This document shows, piece by piece, positions 7,443 through 14,797 of a DNA stretch of 64,000 nucleotides. This stretch comes from Thiomicrorhabdus sp. 6S3-12 (GTDB lineage: Bacteria > Pseudomonadota > Gammaproteobacteria > Thiomicrospirales > Thiomicrospiraceae): assembly GCF_017571475.1 (NCBI RefSeq), contig NZ_JAGETW010000003.1, forward strand, positions 124,001 to 188,000, in the 5' to 3' direction. The stretch's first letter is position 1. Each line of letters opens with the position of its first letter. Under the pieces are notes generated by a model. The model searched no databases, had not been told where the DNA came from, and was given only the letters and a program-made list of their open reading frames with translations. A program made the translations under genes and the position numbers.

Positions 7443-8702
7443 ATGTTTAAACCAAACCGACTTTGCTTAAAGTCAGGCGCCCGCGGGCTTGCTCTGACCG
7501 TTCTGAGCGGTGCACTTTTCTGGAACCAGGCCTCTGCCGAAGAGATCGTTTTCAGTCCTCAGGACCAGGAGCAGTTTCAGGAGTGGATACAAACGTTTAA
7601 ACAGCAAGCCCTGTCGCAGGGAATTTCTCGCCAGACCCTGGATTCGGCATTTTCCAATCTGACACTAAGCGATAAGATCCTGCAATCGGATCGAAAACAA
7701 CCGGAATTCACCCGTACCTTTTTTGAATATCTGCAGAGAGCGGTTTCACCTACCCGAATCGAGAACGGAAAATCGAATTACCGGCAGCAATCGGAGCTCT
7801 TAAAGCAAGTCGAAGCGAAATACGGTGTTCCCGGCGTTTATCTGACCGCCTTCTGGGGAATGGAAACCAATTATGGCGCTTACACCGGGTATGACCCGAT
7901 CATCCAATCACTGGCCACCCTTGCATTTGATCCGCGACGCAGCCGTTTTTTCTCTAAAGAACTTATCGCCGCACTGAAAATTCTCGATCAGGGACACGTA
8001 ACGCTTGAAGAAATGAAAGGTTCATGGGCAGGTGCTATGGGCCAGGTTCAATTCATGCCGAGCAACTATCTGAAATACGCGGTTGACGGTGACGGCGACG
8101 GTAAAATCAATCTATGGAAAAGCATTCCTGACGCCCTGTATTCGGCAGGCAATTTCCTCAATCAGCTTGGTTGGCAGGCTCAGCAGGAATGGGGCGAAGA
8201 GGTGAAACTGCCGGAAGGCTTTGACTACGCTTTGGCCGACGGAAAAACACGCCGCCCTATTCAAGACTGGCAGGCAATGGGCGTACGTACGATCAATGGT
8301 GAGGATTTAAGTACCAAGATTGATTCTGCGATACTGGTTCTTCCCGGTGATTACCGAGGCCCGGCCTTTCTAGCCTATGACAACTATAAAGTGATCAAAC
8401 GCTGGAACAACTCGACCAATTACGCAATCGGCGTTGGCTATCTGGCCGATCAGATCCGCAACAAGCCGAAACTAAGTAAAAGTCGTCCGGAAGATGATAA
8501 GGGGCTGAGTTATGAAGAAATTACCGAAATTCAAAACCTGTTAAATCAACTGGGCTTCAATGTTGGTAAAGCGGACGGCATTGCCGGCTCGAATACTCGC
8601 AGTGCTTTACGAGATTTCCAAAAATCGATCGAAGTGCCAGCTGATGGCTACCCTTCTTTAAGAATGCTGAAATACCTGCGACACGCCATTAACAACGCCT
8701 GA
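7443..8702 (+). CDS. Lytic murein transglycosylase (MltB type) with peptidoglycan-binding domain
   Basis: Periplasmic enzyme that cleaves the glycan strand of peptidoglycan and forms 1,6-anhydromuramic acid. Residues 1-32 form a signal peptide ending in ASA before EEIVF, with no lipobox Cys, so the protein is probably soluble rather than a lipoprotein. The SLT_2/MltB fold contains the catalytic Glu of FWGMETNYGAY near residue 141 and the GAMGQVQFMPSNYL motif near 199. Residues 357-415 form a PG_binding_1 domain (EIQNLLNQLGF ... GIAGSNTRSALRDFQ). The 419-residue length matches the family with a C-terminal binding domain. The start has GAGGGG five bases upstream. Confidence 0.93.
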   Translation: MFKPNRLCLKSGARGLALTVLSGALFWNQASAEEIVFSPQDQEQFQEWIQTFKQQALSQGISRQTLDSAFSNLTLSDKILQSDRKQPEFTRTFFEYLQRAVSPTRIENGKSNYRQQSELLKQVEAKYGVPGVYLTAFWGMETNYGAYTGYDPIIQSLATLAFDPRRSRFFSKELIAALKILDQGHVTLEEMKGSWAGAMGQVQFMPSNYLKYAVDGDGDGKINLWKSIPDALYSAGNFLNQLGWQAQQEWGEEVKLPEGFDYALADGKTRRPIQDWQAMGVRTINGEDLSTKIDSAILVLPGDYRGPAFLAYDNYKVIKRWNNSTNYAIGVGYLADQIRNKPKLSKSRPEDDKGLSYEEITEIQNLLNQLGFNVGKADGIAGSNTRSALRDFQKSIEVPADGYPSLRMLKYLRHAINNA

Positions 8703-8739
8703 TCTTACGCATTGCTTCCTCCTGCATACGGCAAGGATG

Positions 8740-9522
8740 CTAAATGGATTCGTATGGTGAGAAATCGTCTTCTTCGTTAAGTGCCGCACTCAATTCCAAA
8801 TTCGCCATAGATGGCAGATTTGAAACGTCTTCTGAGAAATAACCACTGAGGTCAACCGCCTGAACCAACTGCTGTACCAGCGCTTCAATCTGGCCTCCAA
8901 TGGTTCCGTCCTCCAAAGAAGCATAATCAAGAAAGTATTGCAGATCCCTATGGATGACATCGTTATTCGTCTGCGTTTCAGAAAGCGATACATTATCCGA
9001 TACAGGAACCGACTCCCCCGTCAAAGCCTCTTCAAGTGAAAGTAATTCTGCCGTTTTCGAAGGAGATAAACGTTCAGCCAATAAATCCTCAGCCAAGGCA
9101 TGCTCATCCTGCGAGCTTAAGAACAGACTATGATCGTCAAGCAAAGCACTATCAACAAAATTTTCCGAAGCCATTGACTGATTCAGCAACTCTGTCAGAC
9201 TACCCAAAACCTGATTCAAACCGTTATCAGGATTAGCCAGAGCCAATTCAACCACCGACTGGATAAAGCTGCTGCTACTGGAAACTGCTTCTGTCTGCGC
9301 ATCCACATTGAGGTTAACGACATCGGCGTCCAGTAAGAGTTTTTGATTTTCGAAAAGCGTGATTACTCTGTCGTCAGACAAGTGTACGGTACAAGCAGCA
9401 TCGTTTCCGGTCAGGACAAACTCATTGAACTGCACCGAATCGCCCGCTTTCGCCGTATGCAAAGCACTGCCGGAGGCGATCTGTACGACACCCTCTGCCG
9501 ACTCGATTTTAGCCACTTCCAT
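8740..9522 (-). CDS. Acidic protein with retention-module-like N-terminus, function unknown
   Basis: A 260-residue acidic protein with no signal peptide. Residues 1-75 (EVAKIESAEGVVQIAS ... DSVQFNEFVLTG ... VHLSDDRVITLFENQ) look like the N-terminal retention module of LapA/BapA-type giant adhesins, where such a domain anchors the protein in the type I secretion outer-membrane channel. Here it is followed only by a Ser/Leu/Glu/Asp-rich region rather than long adhesin repeats. I chose the ATG at 9522 because GGAGG sits seven bases upstream; an ATG at 9567 lacks a site. A FecR-like or simply acidic regulatory protein is an alternative reading. The next gene upstream is the equally unusual repeat protein, separated by a terminator. 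Confidence 0.55.
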   Translation of the reverse strand: MEVAKIESAEGVVQIASGSALHTAKAGDSVQFNEFVLTGNDAACTVHLSDDRVITLFENQKLLLDADVVNLNVDAQTEAVSSSSSFIQSVVELALANPDNGLNQVLGSLTELLNQSMASENFVDSALLDDHSLFLSSQDEHALAEDLLAERLSPSKTAELLSLEEALTGESVPVSDNVSLSETQTNNDVIHRDLQYFLDYASLEDGTIGGQIEALVQQLVQAVDLSGYFSEDVSNLPSMANLELSAALNEEDDFSPYESI

Positions 9523-9610
9523 TTTTCGTCCTCCGCTCTCGCTACTTTGCACCCATAGAGTAAACATCGTTTACAAAAATATATTACTTAAAACTAAAAA
9601 GTTTGCATAC

Positions 9611-9624
9611 TGTCCTTAAGGACA
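9611..9624. promoter_or_regulatory. 14-bp perfect palindrome upstream of the retention-module-like gene
   Basis: TGTCCTTAAGGACA reads the same on both strands. It lies about 90 bases upstream of the ATG at 9522, in AT-rich DNA just before a possible promoter (minus strand ATGCAA, 16 bases, TAATAT). Its size and place suggest an operator for a dimeric regulator, but no regulator can be named from the sequence. Confidence 0.4.
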
Positions 9625-9703
9625 ATACGAAAAAAAGCAAAAATAGCAGAATCACTCAAAAAAAGAAGAGTAAAGGAATTAGGGCATTAACTTGAAGGTA
9701 ATA

Positions 9704-9728
9704 AAAAAGCACCCATTGGGTGCTTTTT
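9704..9728 (-). terminator. Symmetrical rho-independent terminator
   Basis: AAAAAGCACCC (9704-9714) and GGGTGCTTTTT (9718-9728) form an 11-bp stem with a 3-base loop. It follows the stop of the Gly/Leu-rich protein gene by 24 bases on the minus strand. The symmetrical tails would allow it to work in both directions. Confidence 0.85.
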
Positions 9729-9751
9729 ACCACTTCGAGAAAAACGAGGGC

Positions 9752-10723
9752 TTAGAAAGAAAGCAGACCGCCAAGATCCAGCGAAGAATCCGACCCTAGA
9801 GACAGAAGATTCATTACGCTTCCGGTCAAAGACGCATCACCACTACCGTCAGCAGAAGCGCTGCCGCTTGCGGAACCGCCGAAATCCAGTCCACCAAGCA
9901 GACCGTCTAGCAGATCATTACCCCCAAGATCCAACAATCCAGCGATGTCCAGAACACCACCCATGTCACCGCCTGTCAGACCGCCAAGAGCTCCGGAAAT
10001 CATTCCATCTTCGCCAAGTAGCGCATTCGTTACGTTATAAGCAGGGAAAACATGATGCAGAATGCCGGCGGCCGCCACCATGTTTTCACCACCTGCGTTA
10101 GGGAAAATATCCGGAATCACCATATCGACGACATCGCCAACCAGCGGTAGACCTTTAGCAAAACCGACAACGACATCCAATGAATCCGGATCCGCTAGAT
10201 CACCCGTACTTTCCGAGGCAAAAAGCGTTCCCGCCGGGATGTTGCCGCCGATAGCATTTCCGCCAAGAGAAATATCGTGAAGAAGTCCGGTCACCATACC
10301 GACCTGATCACCAAGCGGACCTTCGTGCAAGGTCGTGATGATTCCAGTTACAGGCCCTTCAAGTGCCGGAATCGCTTTCAAATGTCCCACCACGGCACCA
10401 AGCGCATCACCACCCAGTTCACCCTCTGTTGTATTAGGGGCAAGAACCGGCAGCAAAGCGGAAAATGCAGGAAGGGTTTTAAGTAGCGCGACAGTATTAT
10501 CAATCAGAACAGGACCCGGAGCGATTTGATGCAGAGTGGAAATCAATGTATCACCCGCAGGAAGTGCTTTCACAGCACCGATAATATCCATGATGTTTGT
10601 CGTATCGTCCGAAGGAGTCGCCTGGTCATAACCGGTAACTGCCTTGGTGTTCAAAATGTTCACTAGCGAAAAAATCGCGTCAGATGAGTCTGTTTTACCA
10701 GCATTCAATAAATCAAGTGCCAT
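9752..10723 (-). CDS. Gly/Leu/Asp-rich protein with degenerate internal repeats, function unknown
   Basis: A 323-residue, strongly acidic and hydrophobic protein that I do not recognise. It has no signal peptide and no Cys. A repeat built around K-x-[LI]-P recurs at residues 52-55, 82-85, 116-119 and 190-193. Each copy is preceded by a hydrophobic stretch of about 10 residues and followed by more Leu/Ile/Val with His, Pro or Gly turns. From about residue 240 it becomes Gly/Leu/Asp-rich (LGGLTGGDMGG, LLDGLLGGLDFGG), then Ser/Gly-rich, and ends in LDLGGLLSF. Lack of an N-terminal signal with a hydrophobic acidic C-terminus would suit type I secretion, but that is inference. The start has CGGAG about ten bases upstream. 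Confidence 0.6.
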   Translation of the reverse strand: MALDLLNAGKTDSSDAIFSLVNILNTKAVTGYDQATPSDDTTNIMDIIGAVKALPAGDTLISTLHQIAPGPVLIDNTVALLKTLPAFSALLPVLAPNTTEGELGGDALGAVVGHLKAIPALEGPVTGIITTLHEGPLGDQVGMVTGLLHDISLGGNAIGGNIPAGTLFASESTGDLADPDSLDVVVGFAKGLPLVGDVVDMVIPDIFPNAGGENMVAAAGILHHVFPAYNVTNALLGEDGMISGALGGLTGGDMGGVLDIAGLLDLGGNDLLDGLLGGLDFGGSASGSASADGSGDASLTGSVMNLLSLGSDSSLDLGGLLSF

Positions 10724-11271
10724 CTTATCTATACTCCGAATATTTTATATAATGATCGGTCAATGTTTTTATTCCTGCAGGCACTTAGAATTTTATATTT
10801 TGGCCTGCTCATTAAATTGACAGCACCAATCTTACCCAAGCCAGTAAACAATCTCTACACCCAAAAACCTCAATAATTCATTTTTTTACTGTAAAAATTA
10901 TTTAAAAAAAATATATCTTTAATTTTCAACAAGTTACATAAAAAACAGGCTTTATCATATTTTTTTATCTTCAAATAGAAGTAATATTTTTCAGTTTTTA
11001 CTAATACTTTTCTATAAGACATATAAAGCCACAATAAGACGATTATTTTTAAATTAATTCAGTGCATTAATGCGCAAATAAAACTAAGACGCTACAAACA
11101 GTGCACTTAATACACAATACAATTATCTTATAGCCAGAATTATGAATTGACATCTGACAGAATGAGAAGAGACGCACAGACAGGTATTCCGTGCGTTTTT
11201 TTGGCCACCTAGACCTCTGAACAGAAGCTTTGCCTAGAGAAAATAAAGATCAAACACTGCCAAGCCGTTTG
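10724..11271. other. AT-rich intergenic region, no gene seen
   Basis: About 550 bases with very low GC and no convincing reading frame. It holds the presumed promoter of the Gly/Leu-rich protein gene at its left end. A perfect palindrome GCATTAATGC (11064-11073) sits in CAGTGCATTAAT, and a near copy, CAGTGCACTTAAT, lies about 38 bases further on. An orphan plus-strand terminator lies near the right end. Confidence 0.5.
11172..11203 (+). terminator. Orphan plus-strand terminator, possible small-RNA end
   Basis: ACGCAC (11172-11177) pairs with GTGCGT (11191-11196) around a 13-base loop, followed by a run of seven T on the plus strand. The only plus-strand gene upstream ends 2.5 kb away with other genes in between. 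The terminator may therefore belong to a short untranslated transcript starting in the AT-rich gap. Confidence 0.5.
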
Positions 11272-11754
11272 CTACGAACGATTTTCTTTTTTTAAGAACA
11301 GTTCACTCAAAACCAATGCGATGGCGCCAAGCGTAATAGCAATATCGGCAACATTAAAGGTTGCATAATGCCAGGTGCCTATATAAAAATCGATAAAATC
11401 CGTCACCTTACCTTGCATCACTCTGTCGATAAGATTACCGACTGCACCGCCCAGAACGAGGTTGATACTGACGGTTTCCAAAGAGACTTTTGCCGGTAAT
11501 TTATACAACCACCACAGTAAGAAACTGCTCATCGCTACCGCTAATCCTACGAAGAACCATCTCTGCCAGCCGCCCATATCCGCTAGAAAACTGAATGCTG
11601 CACCATGGTTGTATGCCAACGTCCAATTCAAATACGGCAAAACCGCAATCGGCTCGCCAAAACTCAAATAGGAAACGGCCAGATATTTCGTGAGATGATC
11701 AAACAGGATTACCAGCACGGCAATCCACAAGGTTTTTAAAGCAGTGGCACTCAT
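11272..11754 (-). CDS. lspA: Lipoprotein signal peptidase (signal peptidase II)
   Basis: Inner-membrane aspartyl protease that removes the signal peptide from diacylglyceryl-modified prolipoproteins. Four hydrophobic segments span the 160 residues. The catalytic aspartates lie in GNLIDRV (about D110) and NVADIAI (about D137), and the NHGAAFS motif near residue 49 is also conserved. As in many gammaproteobacteria the gene follows ribF-ileS, but here a clear terminator separates it from ileS, so it may have its own promoter. Its substrates in this window would include LptE. Confidence 0.95.
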   Translation of the reverse strand: MSATALKTLWIAVLVILFDHLTKYLAVSYLSFGEPIAVLPYLNWTLAYNHGAAFSFLADMGGWQRWFFVGLAVAMSSFLLWWLYKLPAKVSLETVSINLVLGGAVGNLIDRVMQGKVTDFIDFYIGTWHYATFNVADIAITLGAIALVLSELFLKKENRS

Positions 11755-11777
11755 TATTGCTCGCCTTTAAAAGTCAT

Positions 11778-11805
11778 AAAAAAACCACGAAGACTTCTCT
11801 CGTGG
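11778..11805 (-). terminator. Rho-independent terminator between ileS and lspA
   Basis: On the minus strand CCACGA (11805-11800) pairs with TCGTGG (11790-11785), followed by seven T. It lies 137 bases past the ileS stop and only 24 bases before the lspA start. It could therefore reduce lspA read-through from the ribF-ileS unit. Confidence 0.75.
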
Positions 11806-11941
11806 CTCTAGAAAGTTAATTTCTGCTCAGGTCGCCATCTGCGTTATGCCATTTCAAGGCAGAAAATGTGAGCTTATCAATATAAGCAACCATTCTCTAA
11901 CACTGAAATGGCTTACCAGATTAGTGAAATAAGTCTATAAA

Positions 11942-14797
11942 TTAAGCGAAGTGACGGACTTCGCCCTCACCCTCGACATTATCCACACAACGTTGACACA
12001 GATCCTCATGACCCTCAATCGAGCCGACCTCTTCACGATGGTGCCAGCAACGGGCACACTTGGCATGTTCGGTGGCCTTCGCTTCAATCCATAGACCATT
12101 TACTTCGGATTCGATCGCCGTTGCAGTTTTTTCTGCTGCAGGCAACACTTTCGCTTCCGATGTAATCAAAACAAAACGCAACTCTTCATCAAGCTTGTTC
12201 AATTCCGCATACAGCGTTTCATCGGCAAACAAAGTCACTTCCGCAGTCAACGAGCCTTTAATGACCTTGTCGTTACGCAACTGTTCAAGCTGTTTAGAAA
12301 CCGCTGAGCGCACATCCATAATTTGCGTCCAGTAATCCGAATTCATATCCGTGGTTTCATCCAGCATCGTCAAACCTTCGTACCAGGTCGCGACAAAAAC
12401 CGTTTTTTCTCGTTCGCCCGGAATCTCTTGCCAGATTTCTTCAGCGGTAAAACTCAGAATCGGCGCGATCCAGCGCGTCATAGCCTCAACGATATGATAC
12501 AAAGCGGTCTGTGCCGAACGACGTGGCAAACCATCCGCCTTACAAGTGTATTGACGGTCTTTGATGACATCCAAATAGAAAGCCCCCAGTTCAATTGAAC
12601 AGAAATGGGTCACTTTCTGATAGATATTCAGGAAGTTGTACTCATCGTAGGACTCGACAATCTCTTTCTGCAACTGAGCAGCATGACCGACAGCCCATTT
12701 ATCAAGAGGCAACAGATCCTCGTAGGCAACCATATCTTCAGCCGGATTAAAGCCGTTGATATTGGCCAATAGGAAACGCGCGGTATTACGGATACGGCGA
12801 TATGCGTCTGCAGTACGGCTGATGATCTCGTCGGAAACCGTCATTTCATAACGGTAATCGGCAGCTGAAATCCATAAACGCAGGATATCCGCACCCAATT
12901 TATTAGCGATCTGCTGCGGCGCAACGACATTCCCTTTGGACTTAGACATCTTTTTACCGTCTTTATCTACAGTGAAACCATGCGTCAGCACCTGCTTGTA
13001 TGGGGCTTCGCCGTCAGTCGCCAAGGCCGTCAAAAGGGATGACTGGAACCAGCCACGATGCTGATCGGAACCTTCCAGATACAAATCAGCAGGCGTTTGC
13101 AGTTCTGCGCGCTCCTTAAGCACCGTCTGATGCGAAATTCCGGAGTCAAACCAGACATCCAGAATATCAGTGACTTTTTCATAATTGTCCGCTTCATCAC
13201 CTAACACTTCCGCCGGATCAAGGTCATACCAGGCGTCGATCGATTTTTCTTCGACCATAGACGCAACCTGCTGCATGATCTGGACCGTTTGCGGATGCAT
13301 CTCACCAGTCACTTTGTGTACAAAAATCGTAATCGGCACACCCCAGAAGCGCTGACGGGAAATACACCAGTCAGGACGCCCTTCAATCATGCCTTCGATA
13401 CGGTTTTGACCCCACTCAGGAACCCATTTGACCTGCGGAATCGCTTTCAATGCAGCATCACGCAGTCCCACTTCTTCCATAGAGATAAACCATTGCGGCG
13501 TGGCTCGGAAAATCAGCGGCGTTTTAGTACGCCAGCAATGAGGATAGCTGTGCTCGATCACTTCAATATGCACCAGCGCCTGATGTTCTTTCAGCACTTC
13601 GATGACATGATCGTCGACATTCAATACATTCTCACCTTCGAACAATGGCGTTCCAGCGACGTAATTCCCCGCACCATCAACCGGGCAATCCACTTCCAGA
13701 TCGTACTTCTGACCGACCGCAAAGTCTTCAACACCATGCCCCGGCGCGGTATGTACACAGCCGGTACCGGCCTCGGTGGTAACATGATCGCCAAGGATCA
13801 GAGGCACGATTCGCTCATAGAAAGGATGCTGCAGACGGATCAGGTCAAACTGTTCCCCTTTACCGTAAGCAATCACTTTATATTTATCAAACTCCCAGCG
13901 AGCCATGGCGTCTTTGATCATCGCCTCGGCAAGGAACAGACGTTCCGGCCCGTTCTCGCCTTCCACCTGAACCACGGCATATTCCAGTTCCGGGTTGATC
14001 GATACCGCCTGGTTGGCAGGAAGAGTCCAAGGTGTCGTCGTCCAGATAACAACTGAAAGAGGCCCTTCTCCGGTATGGTCTTCAACGTGATGACAACGCT
14101 TAAAGAACGCTTCTTCATCAACCACTTTAAAACGCACATCGATCGACTTGGAGTGTTTATTCTCATACTCCACTTCCGCTTCAGCCAGTGCCGAGCGACC
14201 GCCTACTGACCAGTAAACCGGTTTGGTTCCCTTAACCAGGTGACCGTTTTCGATGATTTTCGCCAGCGCACGGATTTCGTCCGCTTCGAATTTGAAATCT
14301 TTGGTCAGATAAGGGTTCTTCCAGTCGGCCATAACCCCCAGACGCTGAAAATCAGCCATCTGCCCATCAACCTGCTTCTGAGCATATTCTCGGCACGCTT
14401 GACGGAAATCGGTCGCATTGATCTTAACGCCAACCTTGCCCTTCTTCTTCTCGACATTCAGTTCGATCGGCAGACCGTGACAGTCCCACCCTGGAACGTA
14501 AGGCGCATCAAAACCGCTAAGACCTTTGGATTTGACAATCATATCCTTCAGAACTTTATTCACTGCATGGCCGATATGAATATCCCCATTTGCATACGGA
14601 GGACCATCATGCAAAATAAATTTCGGGCGTCCGGCCATATGCTCTCGAACCGTTTCATAAAGCCCGTCATCTAACCAGGTTTCAACCTGTTTAGGCTCGC
14701 GGTTCGGCAGATTTCCGCGCATAGGGAATCCTGTCTCCGGCAAATTCAAAGTCGGTTTATAGTCAGTGGTTTGACTGTTCTGGTTATCTTTGCTCAT
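11942..14797 (-). CDS. ileS: Isoleucyl-tRNA synthetase
   Basis: Class I aminoacyl-tRNA synthetase charging tRNA-Ile in the cytoplasm. The 951-residue frame has the HIGH signature ([11 protein letters not shown]) near residue 73, the CP1 editing domain with [10 protein letters not shown] near 250, KMSKS near 614, and a C-terminal zinc-binding segment with CARCWH and CQRCVDN (about 911-938). This arrangement is the bacterial IleS type 1. Its start overlaps the ribF stop by four bases (ATGA), so the two are translationally coupled. It also charges the minor tRNA-Ile2 encoded at 47.7 kb once that tRNA is modified. Confidence 0.98.

Follow-up and report, generated by a model that had tools for sequence, protein, structure and literature searches.

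This locus raises the question of what an acidic repeat protein without a recognised family does next to a small retention-module gene, and whether it belongs to a type I secretion system (T1SS) and the cell surface, as its initial annotation proposed. The window analyzed is a 64,000-nucleotide stretch of the genome of Thiomicrorhabdus sp. 6S3-12. The repeat protein gene (A), its neighbor (B) and the elements around them are listed in Table 1.

Table 1. Features of the A and B locus in window coordinates.
Feature	Position	Strand	Basis
Gene A, acidic LP-repeat protein with a Gly/Leu/Ser/Asp-rich C-terminus	9752..10723	minus	ORF, dN/dS, homologues
Gene B, 260-aa short retention-module protein	8740..9522	minus	Weak NF033682 score, 5ix9 fold match
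Promoter core GTAGAG-N4-TTTAC-N9-TAAGAT, common to paralogous A genes	10829..10858	minus	Pattern search, alignment
Shine-Dalgarno-like CGGAG of A	10734..10738	minus	Sequence; GGAG kept in 10 aligned upstream regions
Terminator-like hairpin after A, GCACCCAATGGGTGC, then a T run	9709..9723	minus	Sequence; absent from terminator-scan output
Palindrome TGTCCTTAAGGACAGTA before B, matching the adhesin-associated box exactly	9608..9624	minus	Pattern search

An acidic LP-repeat protein of Thiomicrorhabdus

Gene A encodes 323 amino acids with no cysteine, arginine or tryptophan, and with 30 aspartates and 7 glutamates against 6 lysines. The calculated pI is 4.05, the GRAVY is +0.50 and the translated ORF ends in LDLGGLLSF, as first described for an acidic protein free of cysteine. 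The N-terminus has no hydrophobic segment and hydropathy (19-residue window) peaks at 1.68 at residue 77, away from the N-terminus, which agrees with the earlier view that a signal peptide is absent.

The gene is almost certainly translated and tightly constrained by strong purifying selection. Compared to the closest homologue found (G020, 98% identity), the dN/dS of A is 0.020; the corresponding values are 0.017 for ileS, 0.044 for lspA and 0.135 for neighbor B. Given this ratio and the Shine-Dalgarno-like sequence, the possibility that the gene is not translated is very unlikely. The names lspA, ileS, trpS and rplR, as well as HlyD in two T1SS operons, were assigned by sequence recognition, unless a family match is cited.

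Four K-x-[LI]-P motifs are located at residues 52, 82, 116 and 190, a number reached by none of 20000 shuffles of the same composition (mean 0.063, maximum 2). Self-alignment of residues 1–240 across a moving cut scored 59, which was equalled in 1 of 200 shuffles; thus, internal repetition is present but weak. The motifs that were originally placed at the center of the repeats are therefore real in A, but the lysine is not part of the core kept by its relatives, since K-x-[LIVF]-P occurs just once in six (L007–L012) of the 11 other homologous ORFs (L002–L012). The element that recurs across the family is LP or IP followed by hydrophobic residues, often with a glycine (LP-h-h-G). K-x-[LI]-P is a local feature; the relatives keep the proline better than the lysine.

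Searches of Pfam, NCBIfam and PHROGs identified no match to A. Among PDB sequences, no match fell below E 0.2, and the A1 and A3 searches likewise gave E 0.2 or worse. The original impression of a protein from no known family holds in these collections, and no cytoplasmic family among the Pfam, NCBIfam and PHROG entries was matched. RTX nonapeptides (GGxGxD) were not seen by eye or matched by Pfam, the NF033682 retention module gave no match up to E 5, and no recognised T1SS target repeat was identified in Pfam or NCBIfam. An AlphaFold model of A, calculated from four sequences, had a pLDDT of 33 and for this reason was not used for a fold search.

Homologues were sought in three overlapping sets of genomes: 58 relatives, 62 from the order and 369 from the class. 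Credible homologues were found only within Thiomicrorhabdus, in 7 of 32 genomes including its own. With the A1 profile, two of the 369 class genomes were matched, one of them the genome itself; the other match, in G299 outside the genus (8.3e-5), contains two in-frame stops and was not considered credible. In this sulfur-oxidising marine bacterium, A is a repeat protein that is strongly conserved and specific to the genus. Conservation among the homologues runs along the whole length of A. In an alignment of 11 homologues, a GGDALGA block, an LLHxxS block and the LP/IP steps are kept, and the C-terminus presents GLLGG, then a Ser/Ala/Asp stretch and then a short hydrophobic motif. One homologue (L011) diverges from the others in the middle of the alignment.

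The more divergent L012 aligns to A with a score of 265 (shuffle maximum 134), and with a score of 124 (shuffle maximum 114) when A is restricted to residues 1–240. Two further proteins, L088 and L116, exceed their shuffles against full-length A including its low-complexity tail (164 vs. 123 and 196 vs. 173) and fall below them against residues 1–240 (91 vs. 99 and 102 vs. 106). L012 and L088 are clearly related to each other in their N-terminal parts (161 vs. 62 for shuffles). The relatives of A pass gradually into a set of LPIVG/GLLGG repeat proteins. The genome also contains an L012-like gene on L161, 67% identical to L012 over residues 1–167, that searches with A itself did not bring up. 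This third LP-repeat gene lies outside the window (G000 C13:232918-233808; L161:4419-5435) and encodes 338 amino acids. A literature search on Thiomicrorhabdus and its former relatives, in terms of type I secretion, biofilm, adhesin and retention module, found no description of these genes among the titles and abstract openings listed, which does not prove that none exists.

Gene order and the retention-module neighbor

The start of B was set at the ATG at 9522, which follows GGAGG (the ORF as listed opens at 9567). Against NF033682, whose cut-off is 50 bits, B reaches only 26. A predicted model of B has a pLDDT of approximately 70 in the N-terminal domain and less than 50 for most of the remaining residues. 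When the model of the N-terminal domain was searched against the PDB, the sole match with E ≤ 0.001 was 5ix9 (E 2.8e-4, TMt 0.79), which we take to come from Marinomonas primoryensis. The entry is described as a "cell surface anchoring domain". From this model, the N-terminal domain of B is predicted to have a retention-domain fold, and the earlier reading of B as retention-module-like agrees with the predicted structure, although the sequence score is below the cut-off. The likeness to 5ix9 is confined to this β domain; B is no giant adhesin, as it continues for only about 200 residues, most of them modelled with low confidence and mainly as helix. An NCBIfam match of B to Shiga toxin B (13.5 bits, cut-off 204.3) was attributed to chance.

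Full-length B was found in 5 of the 32 genomes and adjoins A every time. In 17 other genomes, the B profile matches only the first 100 residues or so, within other proteins. The tripeptide AAG, as found in LapG-type sites, is missing from the B proteins of the window, G020, G013 and G025 and occurs once in that of G011, at residue 230.

The A genes may be considered in terms of two loci. At the first, present in the window and in G020, G011, G025 and G013, A lies between lspA-ileS and B. At the second, a paralogue of A is directly upstream of a long retention-module protein in the own genome (G000), G020, G025 and G013, and a more diverged LP-repeat protein takes this place in G014 and G031. 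The ORFs of the long proteins span 762–1092 amino acids in G020, G025, G014 and G031 and reach the contig end in G000 and G013. By genome search, they score above 50 bits against NF033682 in five of six genomes (51–64.4), with 47.9 in G014; when scanned as proteins, L015 and L019 score 53.5 and 56 bits. Matches to Pfam and NCBIfam families (tautomerase, JHBP and others) inside the repeats of the long proteins were presumed to be artefacts of composition.

Since A travels with secreted-adhesin genes, it is probably an exported part of a biofilm. On balance, we favor a reading in which A is a T1SS passenger or matrix protein of a LapA-type adhesin programme in Thiomicrorhabdus, with export and function predicted from sequence. 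Observations against this reading include that, in G014 and G031, A is kept beside trpS with no B or other retention gene adjoining, and that a distant likeness in G283, considered below, is of low complexity.

The conserved order of A followed by a retention protein at two loci would also be expected if A were not matrix but an accessory to adhesin export or anchoring. Such an A would work in the cytosol or periplasm, perhaps by binding the channel or by serving B or the long retention protein as a chaperone-like partner. The tight conservation of A, which is untypical of an exposed adhesin, agrees with such a role. We consider it quite unlikely, as A matches no known chaperone family and its relatives grade into LPIVG/GLLGG proteins that resemble bulk structural material.

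A palindrome and a promoter core

By comparing the upstream regions of A-bearing genomes, the palindrome TGTMCNNNNGKACAGTA was derived. Besides its exact copy before B, it is present before the A paralogue and before other LP-repeat genes. In the seven A-bearing genomes, the pattern produced 17 rows and its reversal none. Across all 32 genomes there were 49 rows, compared to two for the reversed control; merging rows on both strands of one site, with no other row dropped, left 42 distinct sites in 24 genomes. Half of these (21) are 83–202 bp upstream of a retention-module match, eight precede an A-type or LP-repeat gene by 139–216 bp and the other 13 are elsewhere, where distances run to the matched stretch or the listed ORF start and not to proven start codons.

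Since the palindrome was derived from A-bearing genomes, the fair test is provided by the other 25. There, by hand count, 14 of 26 sites are 96–158 bp before retention-module matches, and it is on this out-of-sample figure that our conclusion rests. The binomial tail for the overall placement (5e-87) assumes uniform placement, uses hand-listed genes and includes the seven derivation genomes. The palindrome is not universal, since an exact copy is missing within 450 bp of 42 of the 63 retention matches listed, and 8 of the 32 genomes contain no exact site at all.

Of the other 12 sites in genomes without A, four fall in rplR, one precedes a PilJ-GGDEF gene and two precede proteins of secreted type. 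Three more adjoin PEP-CTERM or similar proteins, and the last two could be assigned to no gene group. The rplR copies (L149–L152; G021, G026, G018, G004) occur, in four species, at one and the same place inside the gene for ribosomal protein L18 and are probably chance coding matches. The PilJ-GGDEF diguanylate cyclase gene has an exact copy approximately 100 bp upstream (G003 C1:2110573; L141:2574), which suggests that c-di-GMP synthesis may belong to the palindrome regulon. The two secreted-type proteins (L142 and L143; G030 and G016) look similar and carry G[WF]GxWC...QQEP near the N-terminus; the L143 protein has no Pfam match. The three short PEP-CTERM or similar proteins (L145, L147 and L148; G007 and G008) were assigned from a Pfam match for L145 and by eye for L147 and L148, with the palindrome downstream in L145 and upstream in the other two.

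Several observations concern individual genomes. In G031 and G014, exact palindromes are located 147 and 139 bp upstream of the LPIVG/GLLGG repeat proteins L116 (425 aa) and L118 (441 aa), respectively. One site in G014 precedes a 163-aa protein that has no Pfam match. The two exact palindromes of the own genome lie elsewhere than at the LP-repeat gene on L161.

An exact palindrome is thus found in the promoter region of B and of the paralogous A, but not of the window A. Upstream of the latter, the best position weight matrix match was equalled by 196 of 500 shuffles, and the same search before its orthologues and the trpS copies likewise did not find the palindrome. What the window A and the paralogous A genes have in common is a promoter core. 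In the window, 105 nt separate the end of this core from the start codon (ATG) of the gene, and it lies within an AT-rich intergenic stretch of 548 bp (10724-11271) that precedes A. Seven exact sites were found in four of seven genomes and none with a reversed control. Six of the sites are upstream of A genes and one (G011:C38) is upstream of a retention-module gene.

The missing palindrome would also fit a cytoplasmic A with a structural or granule-coating role, as in phasin-like or inclusion-associated proteins, with the proximity of B being incidental. A start that does not resemble a signal peptide, a GRAVY that is positive, strong conservation and the location of A at trpS without B in G014 and G031 are all consistent with this. 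Yet the paralogue is upstream of a retention-module protein and has the promoter core in common with A, full-length B is found only beside A, and no Pfam or NCBIfam family, those of granule proteins included, was matched. We therefore regard a cytoplasmic A as unlikely and retain the exported matrix protein as the preferred reading.

The hairpin and T run directly after A suggest that the two genes are transcribed as separate units. A search of positions 8500–12000 against Rfam (E up to 1) identified two matches, both far below their gathering scores, of which one, to Phe_leader, spans this hairpin. The hairpin also bears on whether the palindrome before B is merely the terminator of A, or a chance repeat, with a spurious link to a regulon. 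A terminator scan does score the palindrome as terminator-like and, when two mismatches are allowed, the window has two matches compared to a shuffle mean of 1.53. With a separate hairpin already following A, and with the exact sites before retention-module matches in genomes that lack A, this explanation is very improbable.

The operator of the Chromobacterium regulators CviR/CsuR is given as CTGNCCNNNNGGNCAG in an excerpt of PMC12114271. Compared to the operator in that excerpt, the box before B (TTGTCCTTAAGGACAG) and that of G020 (CTGTCCTTAAGGACAG) have the same spacing and nearly the same half-sites, whereas many of the genus sites carry TGTAC/GTACA in one or both arms in place of TGTCC/GGACA. 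A further difference from CviR is that the autoinducer-binding LuxR domain PF03472 was found in none of the 32 genomes, and regulation by AHL quorum sensing was rejected as a result. Since GerE-domain proteins are encoded in the two T1SS operons of the own genome, they are the natural candidates for a regulator that recognises the palindrome.

Type I secretion and the LapA-type comparison

Of the 32 genomes, 30 have a TIGR03375 match above the cut-off and 31 have a match to the LapG family (PF06035). The proposal that type I secretion genes should be sought elsewhere in the genome led to two TIGR03375 ABC transporter genes (C11 and C16), each beside a HlyD-like gene and a GerE gene. No match above the cut-off was found in the window, or near A in the other A-bearing genomes. 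The suggested link of A to type I secretion or surface display receives indirect support: the predicted fold of B, the paralogue beside a retention_LapA protein, the palindrome and the T1SS and LapG-family genes of the genome speak for it, and the window itself contributes no TIGR03375 match above the cut-off.

A C-terminal profile built from eight A proteins was searched against 397 gene calls that included those eight. It found the A family and L012 (3.4e-6), and neither the long retention proteins nor the more diverged LP-repeat proteins among these calls. Since the long retention proteins were missed, a shared T1SS signal is a visual resemblance only, and a common export signal for A and these proteins was dropped. 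The C-terminal motif is conserved within the A family without being statistically shared with the long retention proteins.

An LssB homologue (L093:9329-11524) has a C39 match of 23.8 bits, just above the cut-off of 22, and there are several GG pairs in the A sequence. Both would suit a bacteriocin- or signal-like T1SS cargo precursor, with an LssB-type ABC transporter cutting it at Gly-Gly through a C39-like domain. The C39-like domains of LssB-type transporters are not known to be active, which counts against such processing. In addition, an N-terminal double-glycine leader is not visible in A, and its 323 amino acids are conserved throughout. This is one of the least probable accounts of A.

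A possible parallel was identified in G283, from another family of the class, where a 1371-aa Gly-Leu repeat protein has ABC-exporter fragments at a distance of 3.7 kb and a HlyD gene (304 bits vs. TIGR01843) at 5.5 kb. The likeness consists of the GLLGG repeats and this setting; it is to the repeats of L012 and not to A itself, and the match (E 1.4e-7) is of low complexity and may be compositional. In this region (L162; G283 C1:3836000-3854000), the ABC-exporter gene is broken up over two frames, and a protein with a Mur-ligase domain is encoded between the repeat protein and the exporter and HlyD genes.

Under the preferred reading of A as an exported matrix protein, A would be made without a Sec-like signal and would leave the cell through an LssB-type T1SS by means of its Ser/Ala/Asp-plus-hydrophobic C-terminus. 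Its place of action would be extracellular and its partner there would be B, held in the outer-membrane channel by the predicted N-terminal retention fold. The genes would be controlled by a LuxR-type regulator with a GerE domain, whose own gene lies in the T1SS operons. What was computed is the conserved gene, the link between its paralogue and LapA-type proteins, the fold of B, the pairing of A and B, the promoter core and the enrichment of the palindrome in genomes without A; type I export, an extracellular site, contact with B and control by GerE are what we infer. The main weak points of this reading are that the window A has neither a palindrome nor T1SS genes close to it, that an export signal common to A and the long retention proteins finds no statistical support, and that the A model has a low pLDDT.

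A more ambitious form of this reading, which we put forward tentatively and consider rather unlikely as a whole, is that A is the founding member of a new genus-specific LP-repeat class whose proteins are small and strongly conserved. In this arrangement, matrix exported by a LapA-type T1SS would be combined with B as a mini retention protein. Since B has no LapG site, it would be a permanent outer-membrane anchor that c-di-GMP signalling could not release. Control would be exerted at a CviR-like palindrome by a LuxR-type regulator of the T1SS operon that has no autoinducer domain. The preferred reading, if right, would already give LapA-type systems controlled by c-di-GMP a second kind of component, in which a small passenger other than an adhesin is joined by a mini retention-module protein. 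The palindrome would also serve as a genus-wide DNA marker that predicts the surface-attachment regulon of these sulfur-oxidising bacteria.

LapA-type retention modules are known from the Lap system of Pseudomonas fluorescens, for which an excerpt of PMC13090378 gives [T/A/P]AAG as the site for LapG. A differs from LapA-type adhesins in having no retention-module match of its own, and B differs in its length of only 260 amino acids, its score of about half the NF033682 cut-off and the absence of any AAG in four of five B proteins. What the Thiomicrorhabdus loci have in common with LapA-type systems is the predicted retention fold of B, the long protein at the paralogous locus that exceeds the NF033682 cut-off in five of six genomes, and the T1SS and LapG-family genes of the own genome. 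In the two long proteins that were checked, the retention module is followed by TAAG (L019) or VAAG (L015), of which VAAG is not a strict fit to the site as given in that excerpt and TAAG is consistent with it.
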